From: a virus
Virus record (IMG/VR): IMGVR_UViG_3300035701_009376
Location: 1 to 63,986 of that record
Reading direction: 5' to 3' (one strand)
Length of the DNA: 63,986 nt
Shown here: positions 516 to 56,638 of the stretch, one piece after another
How the letters are laid out: each line of letters opens with the position of its first letter
Position numbering within the stretch: position 1 is the first letter of the stretch
Made by a program: the position numbers and the translations under genes
The notes under the pieces: model-generated
Told to the model about the DNA's origin: nothing
Databases searched by the model: none
The model's input: the letters and a program-made list of their open reading frames with translations, nothing else

Positions 516-1013
516 ATGTCCGCCAATCCCAACTGGGCACGCTGGGTGTTCGCATCCGTAGCCACCTACCTCAAGGAAGTCGCTCAACAGGAGCACCTTC
601 CTGTTCTGGTCGAAGGTCTGGACGACAGGACCACCGAGTTCATGGAGGCTACGGATCGGTGCGAGGTCCGCATCACAGGGCCGTTCACGAAGGAGCTAAG
701 CCACAACTACTTCCAGATCGAAGTCGTGGTGAACGTGCTGTTCTTGAGCCGTTACGAAGAGCAGAAGAACCAATACGCCATCCTGCAAAAGATCGGCGTA
801 TTCCACGAGGCAATGGACGGAGCTATCGCTGTCTACAAGTACGGAAAGGAACCCGGAGACGACGAGCACGCGCTTGTCGGCTGCCTTTCGCCGGTCCAAG
901 GCCGCCATGATGCCATCCGCGTCATGCACTTTGGGCAGGTCACTCCGACCGACCGGATCAAGCAGTCGATGGTGGATGCTCGCTACCGGATGGAATTGTC
1001 CACCAACCAGTAA
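516..1013 (+). CDS. Tail terminator/tail completion-like protein
   Basis: 165 residues, starting at an ATG two bases after the upstream stop, preceded by GGGAGG. It lies between a connector-like gene and the tail tube gene, the usual place for a tail terminator (lambda gpU-like) that caps the tail and joins it to the head. The centre (LSHNYFQIEVVVNVL) has the alternating hydrophobic strand pattern of these small alpha/beta proteins. No definite family motif is visible, so the call is by synteny. A longer reading frame continues upstream but is a shadow of gene 1. Confidence 0.5.
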   Translation: MSANPNWARWVFASVATYLKEVAQQEHLPVLVEGLDDRTTEFMEATDRCEVRITGPFTKELSHNYFQIEVVVNVLFLSRYEEQKNQYAILQKIGVFHEAMDGAIAVYKYGKEPGDDEHALVGCLSPVQGRHDAIRVMHFGQVTPTDRIKQSMVDARYRMELSTNQ

Positions 1014-3563: not shown

Positions 3564-6500
3564 ATGGCCGACGAAATCGTCAATAAGCTCGGCTTCAGTG
3601 TCGAAGACGCCCTGCGCGAGCTTCGACGCTTGGACGATGCGCTGGCGAATTCCGGTCTGGCAATGCGGACCTTCGGCGGCGAGTTGGACGCCTGGAACGA
3701 TCAGGCAGCGGCCATCGTTACGAAGATGAAGGCAATGGCGACGGCTGCCACCCAGGTGGTCGAAGCCATGAAGGCGGGCGGCGGAATGGCGGCCCCGGCG
3801 GCTCCGGCCGCGCCGGCTGGTGCGTCGGCGTCGGGCCTGTGGCTGCCGCCCGGCGTGGCCGACGAGACGAAGAAGCTGACGACGGCGCTGCAAGGCGCGG
3901 GGGCAGCCGGAGCGGCGGCTGGCAATCAGATCAAGTCCGGCATGGGCGAGGCCGGCAACGAGACCGAAAAAACGGGGAAAAGTGCCGACCACCTGCGTGT
4001 CACGTTCGGCACGATGGGCCGGATCATCGTTACCCAAATGATTGTCCGGGCCATGAGCCAGATTCGCGACGCCCTACGCGACGCCGTGACGGAATCCATC
4101 GAGTTCCAGCGGCGGATCGCCGAAATCGAGACGGTCGCGCCGCGGGTCGGCGGCAGCTTCGCCTCCCTGACCAGCGAGGCGGCCGAGTTTGCCAAGCAGT
4201 TCAACATCCCTCTGGCCCAGGCAGCCGAGGGTCTGTATCAGACGATCTCGGACCAGTTCTCCAGCGTGTCGGAACGGACCAACATCATGTCGGCGGCCAT
4301 GAAGCTGGCGAAGGTCGGCGTCATGGACTTCCAGGACGCCACCACGCTGCTGACCGGTACGCTCAATGCCTTCGGCATGACGAGTGAGCAGGCCGATGTT
4401 GTGGCCGCGAAGTTCTTTACCACGATCAAGTTGGGGCATGTCCGTGGCAAGGAACTGGCGGACACGCTGGGGCAGGTCATTCCTATCGCCGCCGAGTTGG
4501 GCGTGAGCCTGGATGAAGTCAACGCTGCGATGGTCGCTTTGACCATCGGCGGCCTGGACGCCCACAAATCGACGACGGCCTTGCGCGGGGCCATGACTGG
4601 CTTCTTGAAGCCCTCGGAAGACATGAAGAAAGTCCTCCGGGAGTTGGGCTACACGTCGGCCGAACAGTTGATCCAGGCCAAGGGCCTCCAAGGTGCCCTG
4701 CAAGCGGTGGCGGACGCCTCGGACAACATGGCGTCCAGCATCGCCAAGTCGTTCCGCAACGTCCGCGCCTTGACGGCCGAATTGCGGTTGACGGGGAGCG
4801 GGGCCAAACAAGTCGAAGACGCCATGAAGGAAATGGCGACCTCGACGCCCGACATGCTGAACAGAATCTACGAGCAGTTCACCAGCACGGATGCGGAGAA
4901 GCTGACCCGCGAGATCAACCGCCTCAAGATTACGTTGACGCAAGACTTCGGTGCCGGGCTGACCGGCGCGTTGGCGACCGTCATGCAGTTTGTCGGCGGG
5001 GCCGACCGGCTGGCGTCGGCGATTCAAGCCATCGCGGCGGCCTGCGTCCCTGCGGGCTTGGCCCTGATCGGGTTGGCGGCCAAGGGTGCCATCGCCGCCC
5101 TGGCGCTGGGGCCGATTGGCTGGACGATCCTGGGCATCACCGCCGCCTTGTCGCTCTTCGTCGGCGGGGTGGTCTACACGACGGCGCAGTCCATCGCCGA
5201 GACCCGCCGGCTCGCCACCGAGCAGCGGCAGGCCACGATGGAATACTTGAAGAGCAAGGAGGAAGAGCTACGCAAGCTGCGTGAGGTGGAAGCGAAGAAG
5301 TTGCAGGAAGAGAACCGGTCGTGGGAAGAACGCGCGGCGAAGATGCGCCGATCCTACTTCAAAGCCCTGGACGAACTGCGCGACAAGAACCGTGACATCA
5401 TCGACAGCGACCGGCAGACGATGCAGTCGATGATTAGCTCGCAAGAGCGTGTCGTGGCGGCGTACCGCAATGCGGCGCAGGCCGCGGCGCGCATGGTTCA
5501 GGAGTCGCAGAACCGGCGTGTCACCTTGGAGGGTCAGTACGCCGATCTCTTGTTCAAGGAACGGATCGAGACGCAACTGCGGCTCGACGACCAGCAGAAA
5601 GCCAGTGCGATTCTGCGTCGAAGCTGGGAGTTGGAAGCCCAGGCCAACAAGATGCTGGTCAACGCGCAGACGGAAGCCGACGTGCAGCGGGCACAGGCCG
5701 TCTCGCAGCGGGCCGAGACGTACTTGAAGGAAGGCACAGCCCTCGCCAAGGAAGTGGGCGATAGCTGGCTGGTGTACCAGGCCGAGCGGAGCATCCGCAC
5801 GAACCTGGAAGGGCGGCTTGCGGCCGAGATGAAGTTGGAGGAATTGCAGGCGGCCCGCGCCCAGCGTTTGGCGGACGAAGCTGCCAAGGAGCAGGGCCGG
5901 CTCGACAAGATGAAAGTCCTGATGAAGGACATCTTGGCCGATCTGCAAGCCTTTGACAAGCAAGGTGCCAAGACGCCACAGGCGCTTGCGGAACAACAGG
6001 CCCGGCTCACGGCGAACATCGCACAGTTCCAAGACCTATGGATGGGTGGAAAGAAAGTCGATGTCGCGGACCTGTTGGCCTTCGATCAGCTTCAGCGCCG
6101 CGTGACCCTGGCCTTGGAAGGCGGCGTGTCGGAGGCAGAGGTCAGCAAACTCTATGCGGCTCCCGCGACGTTCGCCAAGTTCCGTTCGGAGATTGAGCAG
6201 GGTGTGGGGCCAGTGCGCCTGATGATCGAGTGGGGCGGGCTATCCAGCCCTCGCTTGAAGGAAGCCACGAAGGGCATGACGGCCGAAGAGACGATGGCGC
6301 AGTACAGCCAGCAGTTGGAGCGATCCAAGGAGATCATCGACCGCTTTGAGGGCATGAGGGGCGCGTTGACGGTCGCCAATGAGGGGTTGGCCCGGAGCCA
6401 ACAGGACATCAAGGCTGCGTTGGATCGCTGGGCAAACGTCGGCTGGGTCAACGACCTGAAGCGCTTTGGCGGGTTGGCCGCGATTGCGGCGAACAAGAAC

Positions 6501-7331
6501 AGTTTGTTCCCTGGCCGGTTCCAGCCGATTCGGGACGCGATCATCGCCCTGGAAGAGGCCATCAACAAGTTCAATGCCCCCGGTGCGAAACCCGGCACCG
6601 AAGACCTGGAGAAACTCCAAGCTGCCTACAAGCTGTACTTGGAGGCCGTCCGGCCGAAAGCCGCCAGCAAGGCCGCCTTGGACGAGTTTATGAAACTCGC
6701 CGAAGGGGCGGTCGCGGCGGCCCAAAGGGTGGACGCCATGCAGAAGGGCGTCAAGGAGATGGCGAAACCGGCGGCCGAGGCCACGGAGGATCGGGCGGCC
6801 ATCCAGGAAGCCTTGCGGGCGGTGGAAGAAGGCGCACGCCGGGTGCAGGGCAGCGCGGAAGGGGTGAAGACCGAGACCAAGGGTGCGCACCAAGCGCTCA
6901 CGGAAGTGTCGCAGCTCAATCTCGGCGGCCTGATCGGTCAGGCCGAGGCGTTGGCCGACGCCATGTGGAGCGCGGCAATGGCTTCGCAGAGCGTAGCCGC
7001 CCCGACCCCGGCACCCGTTTTGACGGCTGCCCACGGAGGCATCGCATGGAAGTTTCTCGCCAGCGGAGGGCCGGCGGGCACGGACGTGATCCCGGCAATG
7101 CTTTCGCCGGGCGAGGTGGTGATTAACGCCGCCTCGGCGCGGAAGTTCGCCGCGCAACTGACCGCCATCAATGCCGGCGTACAGCCGGTCTATCGTAGCG
7201 AAGGCGGCAGCGTCACCAACATTGGTGACATCAACGTGACTGTGAACGACGGCGGAACCAGCCGCCAGACGGCTAGGTCCATCGCCGCTGAGTTGCGAAG
7301 GGAACTGCGGCGTGGCACGGCAACCTTGTAA
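3564..7331 (+). CDS. Tail tape measure protein
   Basis: 1255 residues, the longest gene here. The N-terminal part has a TP901-type tape measure core (about residues 150-450, with AAEGLYQTISDQFSSV and ALTIGGLDAHKSTTALRGAM). Hydrophobic segments follow at about 495-540, then a long charged helical/coiled-coil stretch, and a C-terminal Gly-rich segment (AHGGIAW, SPGEVVINAAS) typical of these proteins. It sets tail length and is thought to form or open a channel during DNA entry. At the usual 1.5 angstrom per residue the tail would be near 190 nm if the protein is not cut. It follows the chaperone pair as expected. Confidence 0.93.
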   Translation: MADEIVNKLGFSVEDALRELRRLDDALANSGLAMRTFGGELDAWNDQAAAIVTKMKAMATAATQVVEAMKAGGGMAAPAAPAAPAGASASGLWLPPGVADETKKLTTALQGAGAAGAAAGNQIKSGMGEAGNETEKTGKSADHLRVTFGTMGRIIVTQMIVRAMSQIRDALRDAVTESIEFQRRIAEIETVAPRVGGSFASLTSEAAEFAKQFNIPLAQAAEGLYQTISDQFSSVSERTNIMSAAMKLAKVGVMDFQDATTLLTGTLNAFGMTSEQADVVAAKFFTTIKLGHVRGKELADTLGQVIPIAAELGVSLDEVNAAMVALTIGGLDAHKSTTALRGAMTGFLKPSEDMKKVLRELGYTSAEQLIQAKGLQGALQAVADASDNMASSIAKSFRNVRALTAELRLTGSGAKQVEDAMKEMATSTPDMLNRIYEQFTSTDAEKLTREINRLKITLTQDFGAGLTGALATVMQFVGGADRLASAIQAIAAACVPAGLALIGLAAKGAIAALALGPIGWTILGITAALSLFVGGVVYTTAQSIAETRRLATEQRQATMEYLKSKEEELRKLREVEAKKLQEENRSWEERAAKMRRSYFKALDELRDKNRDIIDSDRQTMQSMISSQERVVAAYRNAAQAAARMVQESQNRRVTLEGQYADLLFKERIETQLRLDDQQKASAILRRSWELEAQANKMLVNAQTEADVQRAQAVSQRAETYLKEGTALAKEVGDSWLVYQAERSIRTNLEGRLAAEMKLEELQAARAQRLADEAAKEQGRLDKMKVLMKDILADLQAFDKQGAKTPQALAEQQARLTANIAQFQDLWMGGKKVDVADLLAFDQLQRRVTLALEGGVSEAEVSKLYAAPATFAKFRSEIEQGVGPVRLMIEWGGLSSPRLKEATKGMTAEETMAQYSQQLERSKEIIDRFEGMRGALTVANEGLARSQQDIKAALDRWANVGWVNDLKRFGGLAAIAANKNSLFPGRFQPIRDAIIALEEAINKFNAPGAKPGTEDLEKLQAAYKLYLEAVRPKAASKAALDEFMKLAEGAVAAAQRVDAMQKGVKEMAKPAAEATEDRAAIQEALRAVEEGARRVQGSAEGVKTETKGAHQALTEVSQLNLGGLIGQAEALADAMWSAAMASQSVAAPTPAPVLTAAHGGIAWKFLASGGPAGTDVIPAMLSPGEVVINAASARKFAAQLTAINAGVQPVYRSEGGSVTNIGDINVTVNDGGTSRQTARSIAAELRRELRRGTATL

Positions 7332-23673: not shown

Positions 23674-23753
23674 ACCTATAAAAGACCCCCAAATCCCTTT
23701 GATTTCCCAGAAATGCTTGGGAAAAAAGGGGGATTTGGGGGTCTTTTATAGGT
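23674..23753. promoter_or_regulatory. 80-bp palindrome between divergent operons
   Basis: Arms ACCTATAAAAGACCCCCAAA+TCCC (23674-23697) and the exact complement (23730-23753), 24 bp each with no mismatch. Inside is a second hairpin, TTTCCCA (23703-23709) with TGGGAAA (23718-23724). Each outer arm carries a TATAAAAG/CTTTTATA box facing outward, ideal for twin divergent -10 elements. It separates the primase-helicase operon from the ParB operon. It may be a shared promoter-operator, a replication origin, or a ParB-type site. Confidence 0.75.
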
Positions 23754-24741
23754 GTCTAAGTTCGACGCGGATGCACCGATGCCCGAGAAACCAGCCGACG
23801 AGTTCCGTCCGATCCCCTTGGCCGAGATCATCGAGCCGTGGGTAATCCTGCGGATCGTCAATCGGGAATCCGTGGACTACCTGGAACTGCGCGACTCCAT
23901 CGCTCACCAGGGCCTCCTCAATTCCATCTGCGTGCGACCGTCGCTGCGAAGGCCGGGCTACTACGAAGTGGTGGATGGCCTCTATCGGTACACGGCCGCA
24001 GTGGAATTACGGTTGCCGGCCGTGCCCTGCATCGTCAAGCACAATCTCTCGGATGAAGACGTGTTGGCGATCCAGATTCAGGCCAATGCGCTGCGGCCCG
24101 AGACGACAGTGATCGAGTACGCCCGGCAGATCAAGCGGATCGTGGATGCCATTGCAGCCCGCGCGGGAAGGGATGCCACGTTGGCTGAGGTAAGCAACCT
24201 GATCCATAAGAACCCAGACTGGATTCGCCGGCAACTCGATCTGTTGAGCCTGCGGGCGGACATCCAGAAGGCCGTCGAGCGTGGTGAGATACCGCTGAAG
24301 TCAGCCTACGTGCTTGCCAAGCTGCCGCGCGTCCGTCAGGTCGAGTTCATCGCCCTGGCGAAGACGACCCCGGCGCGAGACTTCGCCCCGCTGGCGGCCC
24401 GACTGGTCCGGCAGATTCAAGAGGATGCCCGGCGAGGAAAGTTGCACGACTACTGCCGGGACTTCGAGCCGGTGCCGTACTTGCGGCCCTTGAAGGAGGT
24501 GCTCACTGAGTACCGCGAGCATCACCTGGGCGGTTTGACGGTGGTGAAGGGAGAGAGCAAGACGCCAGTGGACGGCTGGTACTTGGCCCTGCAATGGGCC
24601 TTGCATCTGGACGAGGAAAGCATCCGCGAACAACGAGAGAAAGCCTTAGCGCGAATTCAAGCCGCTGCATTGGAACGGAGGGCAGAGCCATGTGATGAAA
24701 TCGAGACGAGCACCGAGGACCTGAACGACAACGACGAGTAA
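23752..24741 (+). CDS. ParB-like nuclease/partition-domain protein
   Basis: 329 residues from GTG 23752; ATG 23779 (MPEKPADEF) is a likely alternative because 23752 lies in the palindrome arm. The N-terminal ParB fold is seen in IPLAEIIEPW, LRDSIAHQGLLNSICVRPS and VVDGLYRYTAAVEL (the GxxR box here reads GLYR). A KorB-like HTH region follows (ATLAEVSNLIHKNPDWIRRQL, then LLSLRADIQKAVERGEI). First gene rightward of the palindrome. No ParA is present, so regulation or DNA binding is more likely than classical partition. Confidence 0.8.
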   Translation: MSKFDADAPMPEKPADEFRPIPLAEIIEPWVILRIVNRESVDYLELRDSIAHQGLLNSICVRPSLRRPGYYEVVDGLYRYTAAVELRLPAVPCIVKHNLSDEDVLAIQIQANALRPETTVIEYARQIKRIVDAIAARAGRDATLAEVSNLIHKNPDWIRRQLDLLSLRADIQKAVERGEIPLKSAYVLAKLPRVRQVEFIALAKTTPARDFAPLAARLVRQIQEDARRGKLHDYCRDFEPVPYLRPLKEVLTEYREHHLGGLTVVKGESKTPVDGWYLALQWALHLDEESIREQREKALARIQAAALERRAEPCDEIETSTEDLNDNDE

Positions 24742-26432: not shown

Positions 26433-28052
26433 ATGCAACCCTATTTCACGCAAGACAAGCTGACCCTCTACTGCGGCGATTTGCGGCAAGTGCTGCCGAC
26501 CCTGCCAGAGAACAGCGTGGACTTTGTGGCGACGGACCCACCCTATGGTTTCAGCTTCATGGAGAAGGATTGGGACCACGAGGTTCCCGGCCCCGAGTTC
26601 TGGCGTGTCATCGGTCGCGTGTGCAAGCCCGGTGCGCTGCTGTTGGCTTTCGGCGGCACGCGGACCTATCACCGGTTGGTCTGCGCGATCGAGGATGCCG
26701 GGTGGGAGATTCGGGACTGCCTGATGTGGCTTCAGGGCCAGGGTTTCCCGAAAGCCGCCGACGTAGGCAAGATGATCGACAAGGCGAAGGGAGCCAAGCG
26801 CGAAGTCGTGGGCACGAAGGTCGGCTTGCCCGGCTACTCGCTGGCCGACAACGGCCGCACCAACGACATCTACGGCGATCTCCATAATCCCGAGGCCGAG
26901 TGCGCCATCACGGTTCCGGCTACGCCCGAGGCCGCCAAATGGACCGGCTGGGCCAACGCTCTGAAGCCCTGCTGGGAGCCCATAACCCTGGCGATGAAGC
27001 CGATGGACGGCACGATTGCTCACAACGCCCTGACCTGGGGCGTGGCGGGCATGAACATCGACGCTTGCCGCATCGGTGACAACCCCGGCTACAAGTACAA
27101 CGCCGACCGTAACGGCACGACCTTCCACGGCAAGCAGGGCGAGCGGATCAAGCAATCGGCCGAGAAGAAGGGCACTCAGTACATCGAGTCTACGAAGGGC
27201 CGTTGGCCGGGGAACCTGCTGCTGGACGAAGAGGCTGCCCAGCTTCTCGATGCCCAGACCGGGACGCTGAAAAGCGGCACCGGAGTCGTGCGGACGAAAG
27301 CCGGGGACGGCTACCACGGCGGCATGGGCAAGGCCGGCGATGCCCAAGTGGCCTATGGCGACTCCGGCGGTGCCAGTCGGTTTTTCTACACGGCTAAAGC
27401 GACCACAAGAGAACGCAATGACGGCTGTGAGAAGGTGGTGACATGGGAAGGCGTGGACCTAAGCCGCGAGACGGAAGATACGCTCCGACACGCAAGGGCT
27501 ATATCCGCTATCGGCATGGACTGTCTGGCCGCTATCGAATGGAACACGATCTTGTGTGGGAGCAGCACCGGGGGCCAATCCCGGACGGATATTGTGTTCA
27601 TCATGTCAACTTTGACAAGACTGATAACCGAATTGAGAACCTTCAACTTCTCACCTTCCTCGAACACAAACGCCTCCATTCTGGCTGCTACAAAGACGCT
27701 GTTGGCGACTGGATCAAACCTTGCCGCCGCTGCGGACGACATCGACCGATTTCGGAGTTCTACAAGCGTCGAAACGGCGTCTCTCCTTGGTGCCCTCAGT
27801 GCTGTGTTGCGAGTGCTGTTGCAAATAAGCGCAAGAGGACATCGCGGCAATCTACATCCATGCGTTAAACCCGTGAAGCTGATGGAGTATCTGCTGACGC
27901 TGCTCTCCACACCGGACGGCGGGGTGATTCTCGATCCTTTCGCCGGAAGCGGCTCGACCCTCCTGGCAGCCCAACGCCTCGACCGGCGCTGCATCGGTGT
28001 GGAGTTGATCGAACACAACTGCGAGATCATCAAGGCCCGTCTTCAGGGCTGA
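26433..28052 (+). CDS. DNA methyltransferase (N4/N6 type) with an HNH gene inserted
   Basis: 539 residues. Catalytic motif DPPYGF at residues 34-39; SAM motif DPFAGSGSTLLAAQRL near residue 500, preceded by NLHPCVKPVKLMEYL. This order (DPPY first, FxGxG last) is that of beta-class N4-cytosine or N6-adenine enzymes. Between RNDGCE and NLHPC, where relatives run straight on, about 420 bases encode low-quality sequence in this frame and a clear HNH endonuclease in another (27443-27868). The frame is nevertheless stop-free, so an enlarged methyltransferase could be made. First gene after promoter-like element A. Confidence 0.85.
   Translation: MQPYFTQDKLTLYCGDLRQVLPTLPENSVDFVATDPPYGFSFMEKDWDHEVPGPEFWRVIGRVCKPGALLLAFGGTRTYHRLVCAIEDAGWEIRDCLMWLQGQGFPKAADVGKMIDKAKGAKREVVGTKVGLPGYSLADNGRTNDIYGDLHNPEAECAITVPATPEAAKWTGWANALKPCWEPITLAMKPMDGTIAHNALTWGVAGMNIDACRIGDNPGYKYNADRNGTTFHGKQGERIKQSAEKKGTQYIESTKGRWPGNLLLDEEAAQLLDAQTGTLKSGTGVVRTKAGDGYHGGMGKAGDAQVAYGDSGGASRFFYTAKATTRERNDGCEKVVTWEGVDLSRETEDTLRHARAISAIGMDCLAAIEWNTILCGSSTGGQSRTDIVFIMSTLTRLITELRTFNFSPSSNTNASILAATKTLLATGSNLAAAADDIDRFRSSTSVETASLLGALSAVLRVLLQISARGHRGNLHPCVKPVKLMEYLLTLLSTPDGGVILDPFAGSGSTLLAAQRLDRRCIGVELIEHNCEIIKARLQG
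27443..27868 (+). CDS. HNH homing endonuclease overprinted in the methyltransferase gene
   Basis: 141 residues in a different frame from the methyltransferase. HNH signature: RYRMEHDLVWEQHRGPIPDG, YCVHHVNFDKTDNRIENLQL, then HKRLHSG; a C-terminal CRRCGRHRP...CPQC zinc finger follows. ATG 27443 has AAGGTGG upstream. The stop TAA (27866-27868) lies in the codons for the methyltransferase Cys-Val-Lys, so the last residues overlap conserved enzyme sequence. This is a free-standing type homing gene placed so that the host frame survives. Confidence 0.85.
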   Translation: MGRRGPKPRDGRYAPTRKGYIRYRHGLSGRYRMEHDLVWEQHRGPIPDGYCVHHVNFDKTDNRIENLQLLTFLEHKRLHSGCYKDAVGDWIKPCRRCGRHRPISEFYKRRNGVSPWCPQCCVASAVANKRKRTSRQSTSMR

Positions 28053-31473: not shown

Positions 31474-31947
31474 ATGGCGTTCTTCAAGACCAAGTTCGAG
31501 TCGCACAAGCAGGAGTGGGAGACACCCACTGGCCTGTTCGACCGGCTGAACCGTGAATTCGGTTTCACGCTGGACCTGGCGGCGGATGCCACGAATGCGA
31601 AGTGTTCGACCTACTACACGTCGGAGAACGATGCCTTAAGGCTCCCCTGGCACGGTGTCTGTTGGCTCAATCCGCCCTACGGCGCGAAGCAACACAGGCT
31701 CTCGGACTGGGTGCAGAAAGCGTTTCGGGAAGCCCAGACCAAGGCAGGCTGCAAGGTCGTCATGCTGATCCCCGCACGTACCAACACCCGCTGGTGGCAC
31801 GACTACTGCATGAGGGCCGCCGAAATCCGCTTCATCAACGGGCGACCAAAATTCGGCGATGCCAAGCACGGGCTGCCACAGCCCTTGGCCTTGGTTGTCT
31901 TCCAACCGCACGACGGCCCGACCGTTCTCTCCTCCTTCGAGGCATGA
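31474..31947 (+). CDS. Phage N6-adenine DNA methyltransferase (Dam-like)
   Basis: 157 residues. EWETPTGLFDRLNREFGFTL, LAADATNAKCSTYYT and WLNPPYG are the hallmarks of the compact phage DNA N-6-adenine-methyltransferase family; NPPY is the catalytic motif. These small enzymes modify phage DNA at GATC or relaxed sites and protect against restriction. No cognate nuclease is nearby. Confidence 0.88.
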   Translation: MAFFKTKFESHKQEWETPTGLFDRLNREFGFTLDLAADATNAKCSTYYTSENDALRLPWHGVCWLNPPYGAKQHRLSDWVQKAFREAQTKAGCKVVMLIPARTNTRWWHDYCMRAAEIRFINGRPKFGDAKHGLPQPLALVVFQPHDGPTVLSSFEA

Positions 31948-34641: not shown

Positions 34642-35430
34642 ATGCCGACCTACTGCGTAAGTGACCTGCATCTGTGCGACCGCGGCCCGCGCGACAACTT
34701 CTGTTACGGGGACCGGGAAGAGCGATTTTACCGCTTCTTGGACTTGGTGGAGAGCAATCACGGTCGGCTGCTGATCCTCGGCGACCTGTTCGATTGGTGG
34801 CAAGTCCCCGTGGGCGCGGTGATCGTGGCCTACCGCCCGCTCTTGGATCGGCTAGCCGGCATGGGGGCAACGTGGATCGTCGGCAATCACGACAACGCCT
34901 TGGCACCCCTGATCGGCACTGAATTGATGCCCGATCATCCCTTGCTCAGGACGGCCTGCCACCCGTTCGAGGAAATCATCGGCGGCCGAAGGATCGCCTA
35001 CCTCCACGGCCACGAGGCCGACCCCTACTGCTGTGACCTGAATCCCGGCACCGGAGAGATCACGGCGATCATCAGCGGGATGCTGGAGGACCGCAACAAG
35101 GGGCCGTTCCACAATCACCATGCCGTGGAAGACGAGTTCGTCGGCACGTTGGAAGGGGCCTTGACTCTCTGGCGGAGACTGACGTTCCAGCACGGCCGCC
35201 AGGAGGAGATGGTCGCTGGCGTCGAGAAGTACCGCCAGAAGCAGAGGGCCGCTGTGGTGGTCTACGGCCACACGCACGAGCCGGGCCACATCGGCGATTA
35301 CCACTTCAACACCGGTTGCTGGGCGCGGCGGCACGACACGTTCGTCTCCATCAGCGACGGCGGCCAGGGTTCCGTGTGGGAATGGCTGCCGGACCAGGGG
35401 CCGGTCCCCTTTGACGTGAAATTGAGATGA
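34642..35430 (+). CDS. Metallophosphoesterase, UDP-diacylglucosamine hydrolase-like
   Basis: 262 residues from ATG 34642 (GGAGAG 6 bases upstream). Motifs in order: SDLHL, LGDLFDWWQ, VGNHDN, LHGHEAD and YGHTHEPG, all with the metal ligands of calcineurin-like phosphoesterases. SDLHLCD and GDLFDWW are closest to LpxH-like enzymes of lipid A synthesis. In a phage it might act on a host lipid or nucleotide intermediate; substrate cannot be told. Overlaps the following ParB-like gene by ATGA. Confidence 0.75.
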   Translation: MPTYCVSDLHLCDRGPRDNFCYGDREERFYRFLDLVESNHGRLLILGDLFDWWQVPVGAVIVAYRPLLDRLAGMGATWIVGNHDNALAPLIGTELMPDHPLLRTACHPFEEIIGGRRIAYLHGHEADPYCCDLNPGTGEITAIISGMLEDRNKGPFHNHHAVEDEFVGTLEGALTLWRRLTFQHGRQEEMVAGVEKYRQKQRAAVVVYGHTHEPGHIGDYHFNTGCWARRHDTFVSISDGGQGSVWEWLPDQGPVPFDVKLR

Positions 35431-36290
35431 ACCTGCCGGAGTTGGAACAGTACAAGGCGTACTCGATTCCGGTCACGGCCATCTATTATGACGCCGCCTT
35501 CAACTGCCGGGGTGAGTTCACGCTGCAATCCGTCAAGGAACTGGCCGACAGCATCGCCCAGGCGGGCCGGCTGATCTGTCCGGTCGCTGTCCAGCCGTGG
35601 GCCGAGGCCAAGGGTTTCGAGTACCGGCTGATCGTTGGGCACCGCCGCTTCAAGGCCGTGACCACCTTCCTGAAATGGACGGCGATACCTGCCTATATCT
35701 GCGAGGGCCTAAGTGACCACAAGGCCCGCATGTTGAACTTCGTGGAGAACTTGCAGCGGAAGAGCCTGAATGTCTTGGAAGAGGCTCGTGCCATCCAGAA
35801 CCTTTATCCCGATGGTGCGCCTTTGCGACAGGCAGCCGAGGAACTGAAGCAGCCGACACGATGGGTCCATATCCGTGTGCGCCTGCTGAAGATGCCGGAG
35901 GCAATCCAGCAAAAGGCTGCCGCCGGTGTACTGTCTCAAGCGAATCTGGAAACGCTTGCGGGCATTGAGAAGCCCGACGAACAGATCAAGGCCGCCGAGG
36001 AGATTGCCGAAGCACGGCAGCGCGGCCGAGGCAAGTTCCTGCCCGGCTTGGACAGAACGTATAAACGCCGCCGGGGCGTCCGTCCCCGCGAGGAAATCAA
36101 CCGCATGATCGAGCGGATGCTCGGGGCCGGAATCGGCGGATTGCCGCCTCGGGTTGCGGCCTGGTGTGCGGGCCAGATCGCCGACGAGGAATTGTTGAAA
36201 GAAATCGAAGAAGTCACTCTCGAAACCGCCGGAGAATGCGTTGTCTCTGATAGGGAGAGATTTGATGGACACACCAGCCGCTCCAGTTGA
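35427..36290 (+). CDS. Second ParB-like protein
   Basis: 287 residues. ParB fold: SVKELADSIAQAGRLICPVAVQ, then YRLIVGHRRFKAV (the GxRR-type nucleotide-binding box reads GHRR), followed by ENLQRKSLNVLEEARAI and an HTH around APLRQAAEELKQPTRWVHIRV. It is more canonical than the 23752 protein, keeping GHRR. With no ParA, it may act as a CTP-dependent clamp, nuclease or regulator. The 3' end of this gene contains promoter-like element E. Confidence 0.82.
   Translation: MNLPELEQYKAYSIPVTAIYYDAAFNCRGEFTLQSVKELADSIAQAGRLICPVAVQPWAEAKGFEYRLIVGHRRFKAVTTFLKWTAIPAYICEGLSDHKARMLNFVENLQRKSLNVLEEARAIQNLYPDGAPLRQAAEELKQPTRWVHIRVRLLKMPEAIQQKAAAGVLSQANLETLAGIEKPDEQIKAAEEIAEARQRGRGKFLPGLDRTYKRRRGVRPREEINRMIERMLGAGIGGLPPRVAAWCAGQIADEELLKEIEEVTLETAGECVVSDRERFDGHTSRSS
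36217..36244 (+). promoter_or_regulatory. Bipartite promoter-like element E (CTCTCG-N16-CGTTGT)
   Basis: CTCTCG at 36217-36222 and CGTTGT at 36239-36244, exactly 16 bases apart, inside the 3' end of the ParB-like gene. The next ATG is at 36265 with AGGGAGAGA between, so a start site about 7 bases after CGTTGT would give a short leader. It would drive the DNA polymerase group. Confidence 0.7.
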
Positions 36291-36776: not shown

Positions 36777-39437
36777 ATGCCCGACAAGCCGCCGAAACTC
36801 TACCTCGATACCGAGACTTGTGGGCTGCATAGCATGATGGTGCTGTTGCAGTATGCCGTGGAAGACGGCCCCATTGCTCTGTACGAGGTCTGGCGGCGGC
36901 CGATCCGTGAGACGCTGGCGCTGATCGAGTGGATATGCCAGCACACAGTCGTCGGCTTCAACTTGTCCTTCGACTGGTTCCATGTTGTCAAGGTTTACAC
37001 CATCTTTCGCCTCTGCGACCCGGACTGGATTCCCGAAGAGCATATCGACGAGATCGCCATGCTGGAACCGCAGGGGCAAGATGGCCCGTGCGTCAAGCCG
37101 GCGGCGGTCCTGGACCTGATGCTCCACAGCCGCAAAGGCCCCTACCAATCGCTGATGGCCCGCGAGGATGTCAGGATCAAGCGGGTTCCCACGGCTCTTG
37201 CCTACGCCCTGGCCCGCGAGTTAGAGGCCAGAGTCCAATTCGACAACATCTACTTCGCCAAGTCGGCCGACCCGGAAGCGCCCAAGTGGCAGGTCTTCGA
37301 CCGTCACGACTCCTTCGGCGATCTGGATACCGAGTTCAAGGATGTTGTCTTGAAGTTCAATCCGGCGGGCGGGTTGAAGTTCCTTGCCGAGCACGCTCTG
37401 AAGCTCAAGCCCAAGTATCACTACGCCGATGTAGAGCCGCCCCCAGTGTGGCGGCCCTGCGAGTTGGGCTATGCACCCACGGCCTTGGCCGTGTCAAGTC
37501 CTGACAAGGGCTGGGCGATTGAGACGGACGACGGCGAAGGCAACGGGAAGAAGGTCACGAAGTACGCTTGGCCCGGCGTGATTCGCAAGTTCATCGACCA
37601 TTGGGCAACCCGCCAGGACGCCCGCGACTACGCCAATGACGACATCGTTTATACGCGGGCGCTGGACAAGCATTTTGGATGCCCGGAGCCGGGTGACAAT
37701 GACTCTACGCTGACCTGCATGGTGGCGGCCGTCCGTTGGCACGGGTTCACAATTAACCGTGAAGGCATCAGCGGCCTGCGGGCGAAGGCCCAGGCTGTCA
37801 TGGCGGCCAGCCCAGTCAACATCCACAAGCCGAGTGAGGTTCGGGCCTACATTACTGCCGTGATGAACGACACGGAGAAACTGATCCTTGAAGAGTCCAC
37901 GAAGAAGGCCAACCTTGAAGCGATCAGCAAGTGGGGCATCGGTAAGATGTGCCCGACGTGCAAGGGCAAGGGCTACCTTGGGGAAGAGAAGACGAATATC
38001 TGCCCTGATTGCAAAGGCGTCTGCTTTGCTGGTGAACCGGAACCGTGCGGTGAGTGCGAGGGGACTGTTCCGTCGCAGACGCTTACGGCTTTCGGACTGG
38101 ATCGTGGGGCTAGTGTTGACACGGTCCACGCCACCTATCGGCATCTGGCGAAGACGCATCATCCCGACCACGGCGGAAATGCTGAAGAGTTCAAGCGGGT
38201 CCAGGAAGCCTACGAGGCAATGATAAACCGGCCGCAGTGTCATCGCTGCGGTGGTACGGGTTTCCTGAAGGTCGGCTGGCATCCGGCGGCCGTTCGCGCG
38301 AAGGAAATCCTTGCCGTCAAGTTTGCTGCCAAGGAAATCGAGCTATACGACAAACTGCTGTTGTCCGGCAAGTTCCACGCCAGCTTCGTCGTGATTGGTG
38401 CCCTCTCGTCCCGCATGGCTGGGGCAGACGGCCTCAATGCCCAAGGCATCAAGCACACGAAAGAAGTCCGCCAGATGTTCCCCTTGGCCTGGGAAGGGTA
38501 TCTGCTCTGCGGCGGCGACTTCAGTTCCTTCGAGGTGACAATTGCCGATGCCGTGTGCAACGACGAAGCCCTGCGCGCTGAACTGATTGCGGGCCGGAAG
38601 ATTCATGCCCTGTTTGGCATGGCGATCTTCCCCGGCACGACCTATGAGGAGGTCAAGTCGAGCGACGGCAGTACGACCAACGATATGTACACCAAGGGCA
38701 AGCAAGGGTTCTTCGGCACGATGCTCTACGGCGGCGACCACAGCACCCTGGTCAACCGCCTGGGGATCAGCGAAGAGGTCGCCAAGACGGCTATCGAGAA
38801 CTTCGGCAGCCGGTTCGTGGGCGTCAAGCGGTGGCGCAAGCGGGTTGCTGACTCGTTCTGTTCCATGACCCAACCGGCCGGCATCGGCACGAAGGTGGTC
38901 TGGAAAGAGCCGGCCGACTATGCCGAAACGATGCTGGGCTTCCGCCGCTACTTCACCCTGGAAAACCGCATCGCCCGCGCGATCTTCGACTTGGCCCGCA
39001 ACACTCCGAAGCACTGGAAGGACTGCAAGGTCAAGGTGGTCCGCCGCGACCGAGTGCAGACAGCCGGCGGTGCCGTCTCGTCAGCTCTCTATGGGGCGGC
39101 CTTCTCGATGCAGGCAGCCAACATGCGGGCGGCGGCGAACCATGAAATCCAGTCGCCGGGGGCCGAAATCACTAAGCACGTCCAGCGAAAGATTTGGGAC
39201 TTGCAGCCTGTCGGCGTGAACGAATGGCACGTCGCCCCCATGAACATCCACGACGAGATCATGTGCGTCACCCGGCCCGATGCGGTTCAGAGCGTGGCAC
39301 AGGTGGTCCGGGATTCCGTGGAGCACTTCCGCCCTTACGTGCCGCTGATCGGCATGGACTGGAACGAGGAAATGGCGAACTGGGCCGAGAAGAAGAGCGG
39401 CACGATCAAGATCAGAGCACCAGAGATGATGAAGTGA
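36777..39437 (+). CDS. polA: Family A DNA polymerase with inserted DnaJ-like module
   Basis: 886 residues from ATG 36777 (AAGGTGG upstream). 3'-5' exonuclease: D11 and E13 in LYLDTET, VGFNLSFDW, and DYANDDIVYT. Polymerase: motif A GGDFSSFE with D581, motif B KGKQGFFGTMLYGG (residues 640-653), motif C NIHDEIM with D826. Between the thumb segment ending near residue 390 and the segment HPAAVRAKEILAVK lies a DnaJ-like insert: zinc half-sites at C392/C395, C409/C412, C424/C427 and C488/C491 and a J domain (about 436-482) with HPD at 462-464. The insert could recruit an Hsp70. It replicates phage DNA; overlaps the next gene by GTGA. Confidence 0.92.
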   Translation: MPDKPPKLYLDTETCGLHSMMVLLQYAVEDGPIALYEVWRRPIRETLALIEWICQHTVVGFNLSFDWFHVVKVYTIFRLCDPDWIPEEHIDEIAMLEPQGQDGPCVKPAAVLDLMLHSRKGPYQSLMAREDVRIKRVPTALAYALARELEARVQFDNIYFAKSADPEAPKWQVFDRHDSFGDLDTEFKDVVLKFNPAGGLKFLAEHALKLKPKYHYADVEPPPVWRPCELGYAPTALAVSSPDKGWAIETDDGEGNGKKVTKYAWPGVIRKFIDHWATRQDARDYANDDIVYTRALDKHFGCPEPGDNDSTLTCMVAAVRWHGFTINREGISGLRAKAQAVMAASPVNIHKPSEVRAYITAVMNDTEKLILEESTKKANLEAISKWGIGKMCPTCKGKGYLGEEKTNICPDCKGVCFAGEPEPCGECEGTVPSQTLTAFGLDRGASVDTVHATYRHLAKTHHPDHGGNAEEFKRVQEAYEAMINRPQCHRCGGTGFLKVGWHPAAVRAKEILAVKFAAKEIELYDKLLLSGKFHASFVVIGALSSRMAGADGLNAQGIKHTKEVRQMFPLAWEGYLLCGGDFSSFEVTIADAVCNDEALRAELIAGRKIHALFGMAIFPGTTYEEVKSSDGSTTNDMYTKGKQGFFGTMLYGGDHSTLVNRLGISEEVAKTAIENFGSRFVGVKRWRKRVADSFCSMTQPAGIGTKVVWKEPADYAETMLGFRRYFTLENRIARAIFDLARNTPKHWKDCKVKVVRRDRVQTAGGAVSSALYGAAFSMQAANMRAAANHEIQSPGAEITKHVQRKIWDLQPVGVNEWHVAPMNIHDEIMCVTRPDAVQSVAQVVRDSVEHFRPYVPLIGMDWNEEMANWAEKKSGTIKIRAPEMMK

Positions 39438-42166: not shown

Positions 42167-43309
42167 ATGGCAAAGCGCGAATTCCTGCAACTGGCCGACC
42201 ATTACGACCGCCACAAACATGAAGTGGCGGGGTGGTTCGTCTCGGAGAAGCTGGATGGCACACGCTGCTTCTGGGACGGCGGCATCACTCGCGGCCTGCC
42301 CACCGAGACGGTGCCCTGGGCCAGCATCATCGACCCCAAGACGGGCCAGAAGAAAGCGAAGATCAAGCCTGTGGCGACCGGCCTGTGGAGCCGCTACGGC
42401 AACCCGATCATGGCCCCGGACTGGTGGCTCAATCAGCTTCCCTGCTGTCCCTTGGATGGCGAACTGTGGGCCGGGCGGGGCAGATTTCAGCTCTGCCGGT
42501 CGATCTGCGGCGGCGACACGCCGGACGAGCGCTTCGACAAGATCGTCTTCGCCGTCTACTCCACCCCGCCGCTCGGCGCGATCTTCAGCACGGGGCAGAT
42601 CAAGAACGCCAACATGGTCTGCAACGTCGAGTACCTCGCCATTGAGGCATGGATCAGGCAACGGCTCAATGCCAGGGGCGAGCGATTCGAGGGCGTTCCC
42701 CAGCCAAAGCGCTGTCTGGGCGACGACTTCCGGTTCCTGCACCCCGGCCAGCCTTTCGGCAAGGAACTGGCGGTGTTGAACACGGCCTTGGAGAACACCG
42801 ACGCCTCAGTCTGTTACCTGCATCCGCAGATGAAGCTGATCGACGTTCCCGACGCCGCTAATGACCAGGTGGAAGAGTATCTGCAACGAGTGCTGGACCA
42901 GGGTGGCGAGGGCGTGGTGATCCGCAATCCTGACGCCGTTTGGACGCCGAAACGGCACCACAGCATTCTGAAGTACAAGCCATTCTCCGACGCCGAGGCC
43001 CGCCTGGTGGGCTTCACCAGCGGCCGGGAAACCGCCAAGGGCAGCCGGCTGCTGGGCAAGATCGGTGCCCTGATCGTGGACTTCCAGGGCAAGCGCCTGG
43101 AATTGTCGGGCCTGACTGACGCCGAGCGAGAGTTTCTCAATCCCGACATGGCCCGCACAGCGGCCGAGAAGCCGGGGCAGGACATGCCCGCCTTCTTTCA
43201 GGGCCAGTCATTCAAGGTCGGACAGACCGTCACGTTCAAGTACCGCGAACTGTCCGATGACGGCATTCCAAGAGAGGCGAGGTACTGGCGGCGGAGGGAC
43301 GTGGAATGA
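42167..43309 (+). CDS. ATP-dependent DNA ligase
   Basis: 380 residues. Nucleotidyl motif I SEKLDGTRCFW with the adenylated Lys at 28, motif III PLDGELWAGRG, motif IV GGEGVVIRNP, motif V LKYKPFSDAEARLVGF, and an OB-fold C-terminal part. Length fits small viral ligases that seal nicks during replication. Its stop overlaps the next methyltransferase start. Confidence 0.9.
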   Translation: MAKREFLQLADHYDRHKHEVAGWFVSEKLDGTRCFWDGGITRGLPTETVPWASIIDPKTGQKKAKIKPVATGLWSRYGNPIMAPDWWLNQLPCCPLDGELWAGRGRFQLCRSICGGDTPDERFDKIVFAVYSTPPLGAIFSTGQIKNANMVCNVEYLAIEAWIRQRLNARGERFEGVPQPKRCLGDDFRFLHPGQPFGKELAVLNTALENTDASVCYLHPQMKLIDVPDAANDQVEEYLQRVLDQGGEGVVIRNPDAVWTPKRHHSILKYKPFSDAEARLVGFTSGRETAKGSRLLGKIGALIVDFQGKRLELSGLTDAEREFLNPDMARTAAEKPGQDMPAFFQGQSFKVGQTVTFKYRELSDDGIPREARYWRRRDVE

Positions 43310-44283
43310 TCGACGTTTCCTCGATCCGTCTCTATTGCGGGGACGCACGGAGCCACTACGACCTGTGGGACGCGCCAACGCTCATCATCTCCGACGGGCC
43401 TTACGGACTGAACGGCTACGATGGCGACCTCAAACGGCCGGATCAACTCCCCGCGTGGTACGAGCCGCACATTGCGGCATGGACCCGCCGCGCTACCGCG
43501 TCTACGACGTTGTGGTTCTGGAACACGGAAGTCGGCTGGGCGGAAGTCCATCCCCTTCTGCGGGAAGCGGAGTGGCTTTATCGGGCGTGCTGCATCTGGG
43601 ACAAGGGCCTCGCCCATGTGGCGGGCAATACCAACACTCGGACCCTGCGGAAGTTCCCTGTGGTCACCGAGGTGTGCGTCCACTACGTCCGCGAGCCTCA
43701 GTTTCGATTGACCACCGACGCTCCAGCGCTCTCTGCCCAGGATTGGCTTAGGGCGGAGTGGCGGCGGACGCGGCTGCCCTTTGCCAAAGCGAACGAGGCG
43801 TGCGGCGTGAAAAACGCGGCCACTCGCAAGTACCTCACTGGCGATCACCTGTGGTATTTCCCACCGCCAGACGTGTTCCGCAGGTTGGTAGAGTTTGCCA
43901 ATGTGAACGGCGACCCTTTGGGGCGTCCGTACTTCTCGCTTGACGGCAAGACGAGCCTCCTGCCCTCGCAGTGGGAGCAACTTCGCGGGAAGTTCTGCTG
44001 CGACGCCGGAATAACCAACGTGTGGCAAGTCCCAGCGGTGCGCGGCAAGGAACGGATCAAGGTCCAGGGCAACGTGGTCCATCCGAACCAGAAACCGCTC
44101 GCTCTCATGCGACGGCTGGTAAGAAGCTGCTCAGACCCCGGCGATGTCGTCTGGGAGCCTTTTGGCGGGCTTTGCACTGCCTCGCTCGCAGCGGCGGAAA
44201 CCGGGCGAAAAGCGTTCGCCGCCGAGATCACACCAGCCATCTACGAACAAGCACTCCAACGAATTAGGCAAGCCGCTGTATGA
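43306..44283 (+). CDS. DNA methyltransferase (N4/N6, beta-type)
   Basis: 325 residues. IISDGPYGLNGYDGD carries the catalytic motif (DGPY, as in enzymes with D/S/N-G/P-P-Y); the C-terminus has HPNQKPLALMRRLV and VVWEPFGGLCTASLAA as the SAM-binding motif. Likely an orphan enzyme. ATGA overlap with the ligase and with the following Dam gene. Confidence 0.82.
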   Translation: MIDVSSIRLYCGDARSHYDLWDAPTLIISDGPYGLNGYDGDLKRPDQLPAWYEPHIAAWTRRATASTTLWFWNTEVGWAEVHPLLREAEWLYRACCIWDKGLAHVAGNTNTRTLRKFPVVTEVCVHYVREPQFRLTTDAPALSAQDWLRAEWRRTRLPFAKANEACGVKNAATRKYLTGDHLWYFPPPDVFRRLVEFANVNGDPLGRPYFSLDGKTSLLPSQWEQLRGKFCCDAGITNVWQVPAVRGKERIKVQGNVVHPNQKPLALMRRLVRSCSDPGDVVWEPFGGLCTASLAAAETGRKAFAAEITPAIYEQALQRIRQAAV

Positions 44284-45044
44284 GTGAGACGCCCAAGATT
44301 ACGTATCGCCAGTACGGCGGCAAGGCGTCCATCGCCAAGTGGATTGTGTCCCACTTCCCCGAGCACCAGGTCTACATGGAGCCGTGCTGTGCCTCTGCCG
44401 CGGTGCTGCTGGCCAAGCCGCGATCGTTCGTCGAGATCATCAACGATCTGGACGACGTGGTCATGGGCATGTGGCGGGCCATAAAGTCGCAACCCGAGCG
44501 ACTTGCCGCCTTGCTTTGGGCCACGCCGTACACGGCCGCCAACTGGCGGGAACAGCCCGTGGGCGACATCGACCAGGCCGTGCTGCTGATGGCACAGGGC
44601 GCGCAGTTCTACTGCGGTAATGGCAACTCGTCCACCTGGTCGCTGGATAAGTGCCCCGCCCCGCACAAGCCAAAGCCCGAGGTTTGGGCGGATTGGTTCC
44701 GGCGGGTGCTGCCCGCCGCGAACCGGATGCGAGGCGTCGAGCTTTTGCACGAAGACGCCCTGGTCGCCATCCAGCGGGTCTACCGTGATCCCGAAGCCCT
44801 GATCTACGTCGATCCGCCTTACTACGGCCACGAAGACGAGTACCGCTACCGCATCGACTACCCGGCAATGGTCGAACTGCTGAACTCGGCCAGCGCCAAG
44901 GTTGTGGTTTCCGAATACCCGGACGCCGCCGAGTTCTACCGGCACTGGAACCGTATCGACCGCGTGACCGCCAGCCGGGCCGGGACGGGGCGGCACAACT
45001 ACCGCGGCAAGACGAAGACCGAAGTCCTGTTCACCAACTTTTGA
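44280..45044 (+). CDS. D12-class N6-adenine DNA methyltransferase (Dam-like)
   Basis: 254 residues. Motif I YGGKASIAKWIVSHFPEH with YMEPCCASAAVLLAK (the usual PF.GxG region is here PCCASA), EIINDLDDVV, and catalytic DPPYYGHEDEY. These features define the D12/Dam class. The replaced glycines in motif I are unusual. Coupled to the preceding methyltransferase. Confidence 0.85.
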   Translation: MSETPKITYRQYGGKASIAKWIVSHFPEHQVYMEPCCASAAVLLAKPRSFVEIINDLDDVVMGMWRAIKSQPERLAALLWATPYTAANWREQPVGDIDQAVLLMAQGAQFYCGNGNSSTWSLDKCPAPHKPKPEVWADWFRRVLPAANRMRGVELLHEDALVAIQRVYRDPEALIYVDPPYYGHEDEYRYRIDYPAMVELLNSASAKVVVSEYPDAAEFYRHWNRIDRVTASRAGTGRHNYRGKTKTEVLFTNF

Positions 45045-48206: not shown

Positions 48207-48857
48207 ATGACTGTTCCTATTGACCTAGTTCTCAGCGCCCATGTCGGCCAGAACGCGCATGTCTTCGCCGACATCCTGCGTCTGCACGTGCCGCGCGGTT
48301 CCAAGGTCGCGGACGTGACCTACGGCAGAGGGGCCTTCTGGAAGGAAGTCGATCCGACCCTCTATACGTTGCTGGCCACCGACCTGAAGACCGGCGTGGA
48401 TTGCCGGAGACTGCCCTATGAGGATGCCTCCATTGACGCCGTTGTGCTTGACCCGCCGTACATGGAGGGGTTCTTCCGCCAAACCGCGGAACAACTTGCG
48501 GGGTCCGGGTCTCATGCGTCCTTTCGTGAGCACTACGCTTCTTCAGCCACGACTACAAGCGGCCCGCGGTATCACGCTGCCGTCCTGTCGCTGTACGTCG
48601 AGGCCGCTATCGAGGCCCGTCGAGTGCTGCGCAATCGGGGCATCCTCATTGTCAAGTGCCAAGACGAAGTGAGCGCCAACCAGCAGCATTTGACCCACGT
48701 TGAGATCGTCAACGAGTACGCCGCGATTGGATTTCACGCCAAGGATTTGTTTGTGCTCGTGCGGACGAATCGGCCTGGAGTGAGTCGGCTGAAGAAGCAG
48801 GTCCACGCCAGAAAGAATCACTCGTACTTCCTTGTGTTCGTCAAGACAAACCCATGA
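48207..48857 (+). CDS. DNA methyltransferase-like protein
   Basis: 216 residues. [19 protein letters not shown] is a SAM-binding motif I, followed by [18 protein letters not shown], catalytic LDPPYMEGF, and [17 protein letters not shown]. The motif order I then IV fits gamma- or alpha-type N6-adenine enzymes. It overlaps the next methyltransferase by ATGA. Specificity unknown. Confidence 0.78.
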
Positions 48858-54671: not shown

Positions 54672-55370
54672 ATGACGACCACGCAAGTCAAGCAACGTCG
54701 AACACCCGTCCGCCGGACGATCTCGCAGCGATCCGAACTAATCAACGATTTCCATACCTGGGGCGTGAACCCGGACACGCGCGAGATCGTGCTAATGAGC
54801 AGCCCGGACAACATCGAAGACGGCATCGACTGGACGTGCGCTAACACGTTCATCAAGAACCTGCTGCTCTTGAACATGATGAACCACACGCCGATCCTCG
54901 TGCATCAATGCACCTGTGGCGGCGAGTGGAACTATGGCATCGCCATCTATGATGCCATCCTCGCCAGCCCCTCGCCGGTCGTTCTGGTCGCCCACGCCCA
55001 CGCGCGAAGCATGTCGAGCATCATTCCGCAAGCGGCGAAACGTCGGGTCATTATGCCCAACGCCGACTTCATGGTCCACTTCGGCATGGCTGGCTACGAA
55101 GGTGATTCTCGCAGTTTCGTTGCGGAAGGCAAGCAGACGGATGTGATGGACGGCCGGATGCTGGACATCTACACGGCGAAATGCGTCCGGGGCAACTTCT
55201 TCCGCCGCAACAAATACACCAGGGATCGCGTGCGGGAGTACCTGCGCCAGCGGATGAACGAGATACGCGAATGGTACATGCCGGCCGCCGAGGCGGTGGA
55301 CAAGGGATTCATGGACGGCGTATTCGGGACGCCTCGCTTCAAGAGCTACGACGAGATACGGCAACTATGA
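54672..55370 (+). CDS. clpP: ClpP-like serine protease
   Basis: 232 residues. ClpP/crotonase fold features: MNHTPILVHQCTCGGEWNYG (the oxyanion-loop region, usual GG), catalytic Ser in HARSMSSIIPQAA, catalytic His in MVHFGMAGYEG, and a C-terminal handle helix ending in DKGFMDGVFG, like the KGLVD...I of ClpP. ClpP-like proteins in phages mature the head, but this one lies in the early region beside nucleases, so an inhibitory or host-targeting role is possible. It overlaps the next gene by ATGA. Confidence 0.8.
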   Translation: MTTTQVKQRRTPVRRTISQRSELINDFHTWGVNPDTREIVLMSSPDNIEDGIDWTCANTFIKNLLLLNMMNHTPILVHQCTCGGEWNYGIAIYDAILASPSPVVLVAHAHARSMSSIIPQAAKRRVIMPNADFMVHFGMAGYEGDSRSFVAEGKQTDVMDGRMLDIYTAKCVRGNFFRRNKYTRDRVREYLRQRMNEIREWYMPAAEAVDKGFMDGVFGTPRFKSYDEIRQL

Positions 55371-56638
55371 CGCACATTCTGGTGAACGCCGACTGCCTCG
55401 ATTACCTCAACACGTCGCAGCAGTGGACCACACTGTTCGCCGACCCGCCGGACAACATCGGCCTGGGCTACCAGACCTACAAGGATAAGTTGCCCGACGA
55501 GAAGTACATCGACATGCTCCAGACCTGGTTGCACTTGTTCATCTACCGCGCGAAGACGGTCTGGTTCAGCTACAACGCGCGATGGACTTTCGAGGTCGGC
55601 CGCATCGTCTCCGGGATGCTTAGCCGGATTCGCGGCCTGGAAGCGAAGCCTTGCGTCCAGACCTTCACGTTCGGTCAGCATTGCCACCACGATCTGGGCA
55701 ACAACCACCGGCCGCTCTTGCGATTGCGCTGGCACGACGCCCCATTGAGGCCCGACGCAATCCGCGTTGCGTCATGGCGGCAGGAGAACGGCGATAAGCG
55801 TGCGGACCCGCGCGGCCGGGTGCCCGGCGACGTGGCTCAGTGTGAGCGGTACGAACGAGACACATTACCCCTACCAAACTGGACCGCCGACGATATTGAG
55901 CGGTTTCTGTCCAAGATCAACCGTGCCGGCGAGACGGACTGTTGGGAATGGACAGCAGGAAAACGCAGCGGATACGGACGCTTCCGCATTGGCGACAACC
56001 TTTACGTCGCCACACGACTCATGTGGCGACTGACGCACGGAACCGACCCGATCGGTCAACTGGTGTTGCACACCTGTGACAACCCCGGATGCTGCAACCC
56101 TGCGCACTTGTTTATCGGCTCCGATGCCGATAATGGCCGTGACAAGGAGGCAAAGGGCCGCGGCAAACATCCCATCGGCGAGCACAACGGATTAGCAAAG
56201 CTGAGCGATGAAGATGTAATCCGAATCTTCCAATCCACGGACACCAATGTCGCTTTAGCCCGGCAGTTTGGCGTTAGCGACGTAGCGATTAGCTCGATTC
56301 GCAACGGCTGTACCTGGCAGCACGTCACCAGCCGGATCGGACTCAGCGATGTCTTCAACTACCCTCGCGTGACCGGCAATAGCAAGCAGCGCCGCTCCTG
56401 GCATCCCACTCAGCTCAACGAGGGGCTGGTCGAGCGCTGCATCAAGTTCACGACGCCTGAAGGCGAGACAGTTCTGGACCCATTCGGCGGCACAGGAACG
56501 ACGCTTCGCGTCTGCCGCCGCCTGGGCTACCCTTGCACCCTCATCGAGATCGACGCCAGCTATTGCGCCGAGATCGCCAGGGAACACGGGATGAGGCGGT
56601 CGGAGTACATTCACCGCGCCTTATGGGAGATCGAATGA
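55367..56638 (+). CDS. DNA methyltransferase with in-frame HNH insertion
   Basis: 423 residues. Catalytic motif FADPPDNIGLGY near residue 25 (DPPD rather than DPPY), then SAM motif LDPFGGTGTTLRVCRRLG near 375 with SWHPTQLNEGLVERCI before it: a beta-type N4/N6 enzyme. Residues about 160-327 are a foreign HNH nuclease (CWEWTAGKRSGYGRFRIG, VLHTCDNPGCCNPAHLFIG, ending in HTH LARQFGVSDVAISSI). Removing it would rejoin RVPGDV to VFNYPRVTGN, where relatives are continuous. Whether the chimera methylates is open. Confidence 0.85.
   Translation: MTHILVNADCLDYLNTSQQWTTLFADPPDNIGLGYQTYKDKLPDEKYIDMLQTWLHLFIYRAKTVWFSYNARWTFEVGRIVSGMLSRIRGLEAKPCVQTFTFGQHCHHDLGNNHRPLLRLRWHDAPLRPDAIRVASWRQENGDKRADPRGRVPGDVAQCERYERDTLPLPNWTADDIERFLSKINRAGETDCWEWTAGKRSGYGRFRIGDNLYVATRLMWRLTHGTDPIGQLVLHTCDNPGCCNPAHLFIGSDADNGRDKEAKGRGKHPIGEHNGLAKLSDEDVIRIFQSTDTNVALARQFGVSDVAISSIRNGCTWQHVTSRIGLSDVFNYPRVTGNSKQRRSWHPTQLNEGLVERCIKFTTPEGETVLDPFGGTGTTLRVCRRLGYPCTLIEIDASYCAEIAREHGMRRSEYIHRALWEIE

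Follow-up and report, generated by a model that had tools for sequence, protein, structure and literature searches.

The family A DNA polymerase of a temperate phage contains a genuine J domain (residues 428-487), confirmed by sequence profiles and a predicted structure, which splits a zinc ribbon in what is presumably the thumb region. The window, i.e. the whole stretch of 63,986 nucleotides analysed here, encodes this polymerase. Four further polymerases with such a domain were found among 98 non-redundant relatives, and we propose that the domain is an optional cassette whose probable partner is the host chaperone DnaK. In the following, J+ and J- denote polymerases with and without the insert.

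In a Pfam search, DNA_pol_A (PF00476) matched residues 530-850 of the window polymerase with an E-value of 1.2e-20 and 74.3 bits against a cut-off of 34.3. Motifs A (D581), B (K642) and C (HDE 825-827) are present and conserved in invariant alignment columns, which together with the Pfam match places the protein in family A. Since the exonuclease acids D11, E13, D66 and D289 are also in place, the enzyme should be catalytically competent, judging from its sequence. AlphaFold2 modelled the whole 886-residue protein with a pLDDT of 89.9 and a pTM of 0.85, using an input alignment of 73 sequences in which five rows were J+, and a structure search of the whole polymerase returned PolA structures as the top PDB matches. 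By sequence anchors, the insert follows an STKKANLEAIS motif and precedes a long helix, which presumably corresponds to thumb helix I of Klenow; the ribbon and the J insert would then sit at the tip of the thumb.

Table 1 Features of the polymerase gene. Residue n of the polymerase begins at window position 36777+3(n-1).
Feature	Residues	Window position	Strand	Basis
Family A DNA polymerase	886 aa	36777..39437	+	Open frame, PF00476, invariant columns, AlphaFold2
Zinc half-site 1, CPTC (ribbon 1)	392-395	37950..37961	+	CxxC aligned in ~20 close relatives
Zinc half-site 2, CPDC (ribbon 1)	409-412	38001..38012	+	Alignment of relatives
Zinc half-site 3, CGEC (ribbon 2, first knuckle)	424-427	38046..38057	+	C424 and C427 at least 90% conserved
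J-domain insert	428-487	38058..38237	+	Pfam, J HMM, AlphaFold2, Foldseek, alignment
HPD motif	462-464	38160..38168	+	Kept in 5/5 J+ polymerases; AlphaFold2 loop
Zinc half-site 4, CHRC (ribbon 2, second knuckle)	488-491	38238..38249	+	C488 and C491 at least 90% conserved
Long helix 3' of the insert	503-530	38283..38366	+	AlphaFold2

The J domain was recognised by several approaches. Pfam DnaJ (PF00226) matched residues 440-483 with an E-value of 8.9e-8, scoring 32.6 bits against a cut-off of 27.8, and the four other J+ polymerases scored 35-45 bits. We also built a J-domain HMM from 61 phage and host J domains only and searched it against the 98 polymerases, where it found the five J+ members at E-values of 1e-17 to 3e-20 and gave no match among the other 93 (best E 0.33). 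In the AlphaFold2 model, residues 433-439, 447-461 and 469-483 form J helices I-III, the HPD motif makes up the loop joining helices II and III, and pLDDT is ~90 across residues 451-480; helix IV was not seen in the predicted structure of the window insert. The module folded alone was less certain than in the whole-protein model (pLDDT 76.7), and its Foldseek search against the PDB ranked J domains first, including 5nro_B, a J domain bound to DnaK. Many of these matches had an rmsd of 1.4-2.2 Å over ~50 residues with probabilities mostly of 0.99-1.0, and their E-values were weak (0.02-0.3) because a J domain is small. Two marks of a J protein are found, a PF00226 match above the cut-off with HPD and a J fold in the predicted structure. 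An earlier note, made from the sequence alone, had read a J domain with HPD here and suggested both a structure prediction of the 886-residue protein and a search for other PolA proteins with an internal J domain; the prediction returned helices I-III with the HPD loop, and the search added L002, L078, L079 and L094. Pfam found no further DnaJ domain in the window polymerase. A chance match or artefact was ruled out, as the five J+ polymerases lie on six contigs from several metagenomes (the L078 polymerase is also present on L116) and carry the domain in frame at an identical site.

The four half-sites C392/395, C409/412, C424/427 and C488/491 were located exactly where the earlier note had put them. 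Across the 98 polymerases, the number of CxxC half-sites at the ribbon site ranges from 0 to 6 (none in 6, two in 58 and four in 20); J- relatives usually have either a single ribbon with two CxxC or a pair of ribbons with four. Half-sites 3 and 4 belong to the same ribbon, and since most relatives possess this ribbon by itself, the J domain is an insertion into a loop of a zinc ribbon. In place of the insert, J- relatives carry a short stretch of ~2-7 residues, for example CGKCQGNDPQCARCGG in L006 versus CGEC-(J)-CHRCGG in the window. The alignment thereby upholds the claimed position of the J domain between half-sites 3 and 4, unlike the order in DnaJ. The description of the whole as a DnaJ-like module holds for the J domain, which exceeds its Pfam cut-off, but less well for the zinc part: PF00684 (DnaJ_CXXCXGXG) gave an E-value of 0.17 and 12.6 bits against a cut-off of 32.7, with a best score of 23.0 bits in J+ relatives, still below that cut-off, and the zinc part of the window polymerase resembles DnaJ only weakly in sequence.

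Several other features of the relatives were observed. A second zinc module, CXXCXGXG-like, follows motif A (window residue 604) in 30 of the 98 polymerases, including L078, L079, L094, L018, L025, L096, L101, L112 and L141; L025 has this module and lacks the thumb-site ribbon, and Pfam DnaJ_CXXCXGXG matches the module in L079 (E 2.5e-4) and L094 (E 1e-4). The L094 polymerase (5001-7133) lacks ~200 residues in frame (window 617-817), including motif B, so that either the enzyme is dead or the assembly is faulty. Only some relatives (L009, L015, L022 and L024) carry a 46-aa insert after window residue 751, between motifs B and C, and the polymerase relative in L128 (5001-7475) has one in-frame stop within the matched stretch.

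The J domain is missing from 93 of the 98 polymerases, among them the nearest relative of the window polymerase outside the insert (J- L006, 94% identical), and is therefore accessory and dispensable. Where present, its position is constant, between both knuckles of the last ribbon in 5/5. The earlier note had named loss of HPD in close relatives as evidence against its reading; every J+ relative keeps the motif, whereas in most close relatives the domain is missing altogether. On a polymerase tree built without the insert, the J+ members are scattered, requiring five changes, at least three of them forced by well-supported branches, and this tree does not separate gain of the J domain from its loss. 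Because the MAFFT alignment of the polymerases misplaces the J inserts of L078 and L079, setting them beside the J columns of the window, J identities and J trees were made on separate J alignments. In the resulting tree the five J domains group in a single clade against the 61 phage and host J domains (support 99/96, although a 62-column tree is weak), which leaves separate recent captures from host DnaJ unsupported. One clade of J domains scattered over the polymerase tree indicates an optional cassette; common origin with repeated loss and cassette exchange by recombination both fit. Sliding identity revealed no shared recombination tract around the insert, the whole region being variable.

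Once present, the cassette appears to be maintained. The J cores of the five polymerases share 44-65% pairwise identity, and 14 of ~52 core positions are invariant, including H, P and D; on this basis the chance that three given positions are all invariant is ~0.017. The dN/dS of the J region is 0.17-0.5, values that are rough because dS is near saturation but lie below 1, and this points to purifying selection on the cassette when present. Between L078 and L079, however, dN is 0.50 in the J part and 0.08 in the backbone, and this faster evolution means that part of the insert may be under weak constraint. The equivalent of Y25 is kept in all five inserts. Among the DnaK-contact residues, the equivalent of K26 is R in all five, that of R27 is R in three and H in two, and that of K48 is K throughout. 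Position 22 is H, G or N, compared with K/R in 57/61 control J domains, and position 51 is Q or H, being variable in the controls too. Of the basic contacts in the DnaJ-DnaK structure (R22, K26, R27, K48 and K51; PMC8215388), two of five, R22 and K51, are thus K/R in no J insert. Such a pattern would be expected if contact with Hsp70 were specialised or weaker, and no recognisable client-binding domain was found in any J insert.

It is conceivable that the J domain merely elaborates a tolerant zinc-ribbon loop, in a structural or DNA-binding role and without any Hsp70 function. The site does tolerate 0-6 half-sites, basic R22 is gone in every insert, and divergence is faster in the J part than in the backbone. 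We nevertheless regard this explanation as distinctly unlikely, as HPD, Y25, a basic residue at 26 and K48 are all kept at an identity of only 44-65%. HPD is not known to serve a structural need, and J-like domains that have no Hsp70 partner have lost it.

Recruitment of DnaK is favoured because HPD is kept in 5/5, dN/dS is below 1, a J fold is predicted, Y25, R26 and K48 are retained and no other J gene is at hand: 46 related virus records, J+ ones included, contain no J gene apart from the insert in the polymerase, nor does the window carry a second J domain elsewhere. The loss of R22 and K51, the lack of a client-binding domain and the replication of close relatives without a J domain speak against docking. 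On balance, and from sequence and predicted fold, the cassette probably binds DnaK. A free J protein that might replace the cassette in J- phages was sought in 41 J- virus records, many of them fragments, and none was found. Elsewhere in viral contigs (L155-L230), the best 80 J-domain matches lie in ORFs of 189-357 aa that are not polymerases.

We favour, at slightly less than an even chance, a mechanism in which the optional thumb cassette docks DnaK at the polymerase for local remodelling at the replisome. The J cassette, carried on its zinc ribbon, would project from the thumb near the duplex behind the primer end. Host DnaK-ATP would dock on it via HPD, hydrolysis would be triggered, and DnaK would thereby be loaded beside the replisome, where it could open or disassemble a nearby protein such as an initiator, a helicase-loader, a repressor or a stalled complex. 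There are precedents: DnaK disassembles the lambda O-P-DnaB complex and plasmid initiators (PMC8215388), the phage J protein Rki of RB43 binds DnaK (PMC3486835), and through Mdj1 Hsp70 becomes concentrated at mitochondrial nucleoids (PMC3750215). That polymerase-bound DnaK remodels replication complexes, after the example of DnaK and DnaJ with lambda O-P-DnaB, we advance only tentatively.

DnaK might instead be recruited for folding or activity of the polymerase in cis, or for folding nearby phage proteins, with no part in the replisome. The sequence features that point to a functional J domain apply here as well; Hsp70 and a J protein together serve protein folding in general, and a tethered J domain would raise the local DnaK concentration. 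But polymerases at least 90% identical lack the J domain, and a thumb site adjoining DNA is unnecessary for folding help, so we consider this unlikely. We rate as very unlikely a third use of DnaK, in which the polymerase-borne domain diverts the chaperone, as Rki does in stabilising sigma-32 (PMC3486835), or counters a DnaK-dependent host defence, with patchiness reflecting host differences. A patchy, fast-diverging cassette fits host-varying selection and Rki offers a precedent, yet a free small protein would be simpler, and the constant site inside the thumb suggests a local role. Returning to docking at the fork, the cassette would toggle at one thumb point, so that the replisomes of near-identical phages would be DnaK-coupled or DnaK-free and the polymerase itself would command host Hsp70; this broader picture is possible but doubtful. 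Natural J+/J- pairs of ~94% identical polymerases make the effect of the cassette on the DnaK dependence of replication directly testable.

The window is a contig of a tailed temperate phage, with tape-measure, integrase, ParB-like and ligase genes and many methyltransferases. Its ParB-like genes lie at 23752-24738 and 35427-36287, DNA methyltransferase genes at 26433-28049, 31474-31944, 43306-45041 and 48207-48854, and the ligase-like genes are of ATP-dependent DNA and RNA types. One ORF at 55181-56635 joins an HNH homing-endonuclease-like part to a DNA methylase end, perhaps through insertion of an HNH gene into a methyltransferase. In genome collections, related polymerases occur in metagenome bins of Planctomycetota (four), Chloroflexi and Patescibacteria, all of which encode their own J proteins. 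The host may accordingly be a planctomycete, although the binned contigs may be misbinned phages. A tblastn search found no J+ relative among named phages or plasmids, and the viral structure search found distant PolA only.

A true J domain in a DNA polymerase appears to be new, as we found none in the published literature, of which our coverage included few subscription papers; zinc inserts in phage PolA are already known. Kang 2013 reportedly described an HMO-2011-type DNA polymerase with a 'partial DnaJ central domain'. This term denotes a zinc insert in HMO-2011-type PolA (PMC9038755, PMC6918029, PMC8528129), which shares with the window polymerase CXXCXGXG-type knuckles between the exonuclease and polymerase domains. 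The HMO-2011 polymerase has the zinc part only, with no PF00226 match, whereas the window ribbon holds a true J domain. By sequence anchors, its ribbon precedes STSKTNLELL while that of the window follows the equivalent STKKANLEAIS, i.e. a neighbouring loop, although hhalign pairs the cysteines of both. With HMO-2011 also absent from the phage matches at E 1e-5, the window polymerase does not belong to the HMO-2011 type.

Class A DnaJ likewise has a J domain with HPD and CxxCxGxG-like knuckles. In the window the order is reversed, the J domain splits the ribbon and the carrier is a polymerase; both a G/F region and C-terminal substrate-binding domains are lacking, no helix IV is seen, and neither the class A order (J, G/F, zinc, two CTDs) nor a PF00684 match above the cut-off was found.

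The thioredoxin-binding loop of T7 gp5 is a thumb-region insert that recruits a host protein, as the window insert may do, and the zinc ribbons at the window site may touch DNA, so DnaK could be imagined as a similar processivity or DNA-clamping partner. However, judging by sequence anchors, the insert seems to occupy another thumb loop, with another probable partner and another fold. The contact of a J domain with Hsp70 is brief and sets off hydrolysis, whereas thioredoxin forms a tight complex with T7 polymerase. The absence of the domain from 93/98 relatives, including the nearest, shows that it is not essential and leaves a general processivity partner for this polymerase family unsupported; we consider a processivity role, one of two that the earlier note had suggested, very unlikely.

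Polyomavirus large T antigen, a viral helicase with a J domain, is comparable as a viral replication protein carrying a J domain in cis, but there the J domain is N-terminal and the virus infects animals, whereas the window has a phage polymerase with an internal one. RB43 Rki (gene 057w) is a phage-encoded J domain acting on host DnaK, but as a separate protein and not as part of a polymerase. Hsp70 action in phage replication is known through separate J proteins, as in lambda with DnaJ, and in animal viruses the J domain is on the helicase; with a working J domain of its own, a polymerase would bring Hsp70 action to the primer-template. The presence of the domain at one constant site in a few related viruses, and its absence from most, hints that some phages couple a host chaperone directly to their replication machinery.
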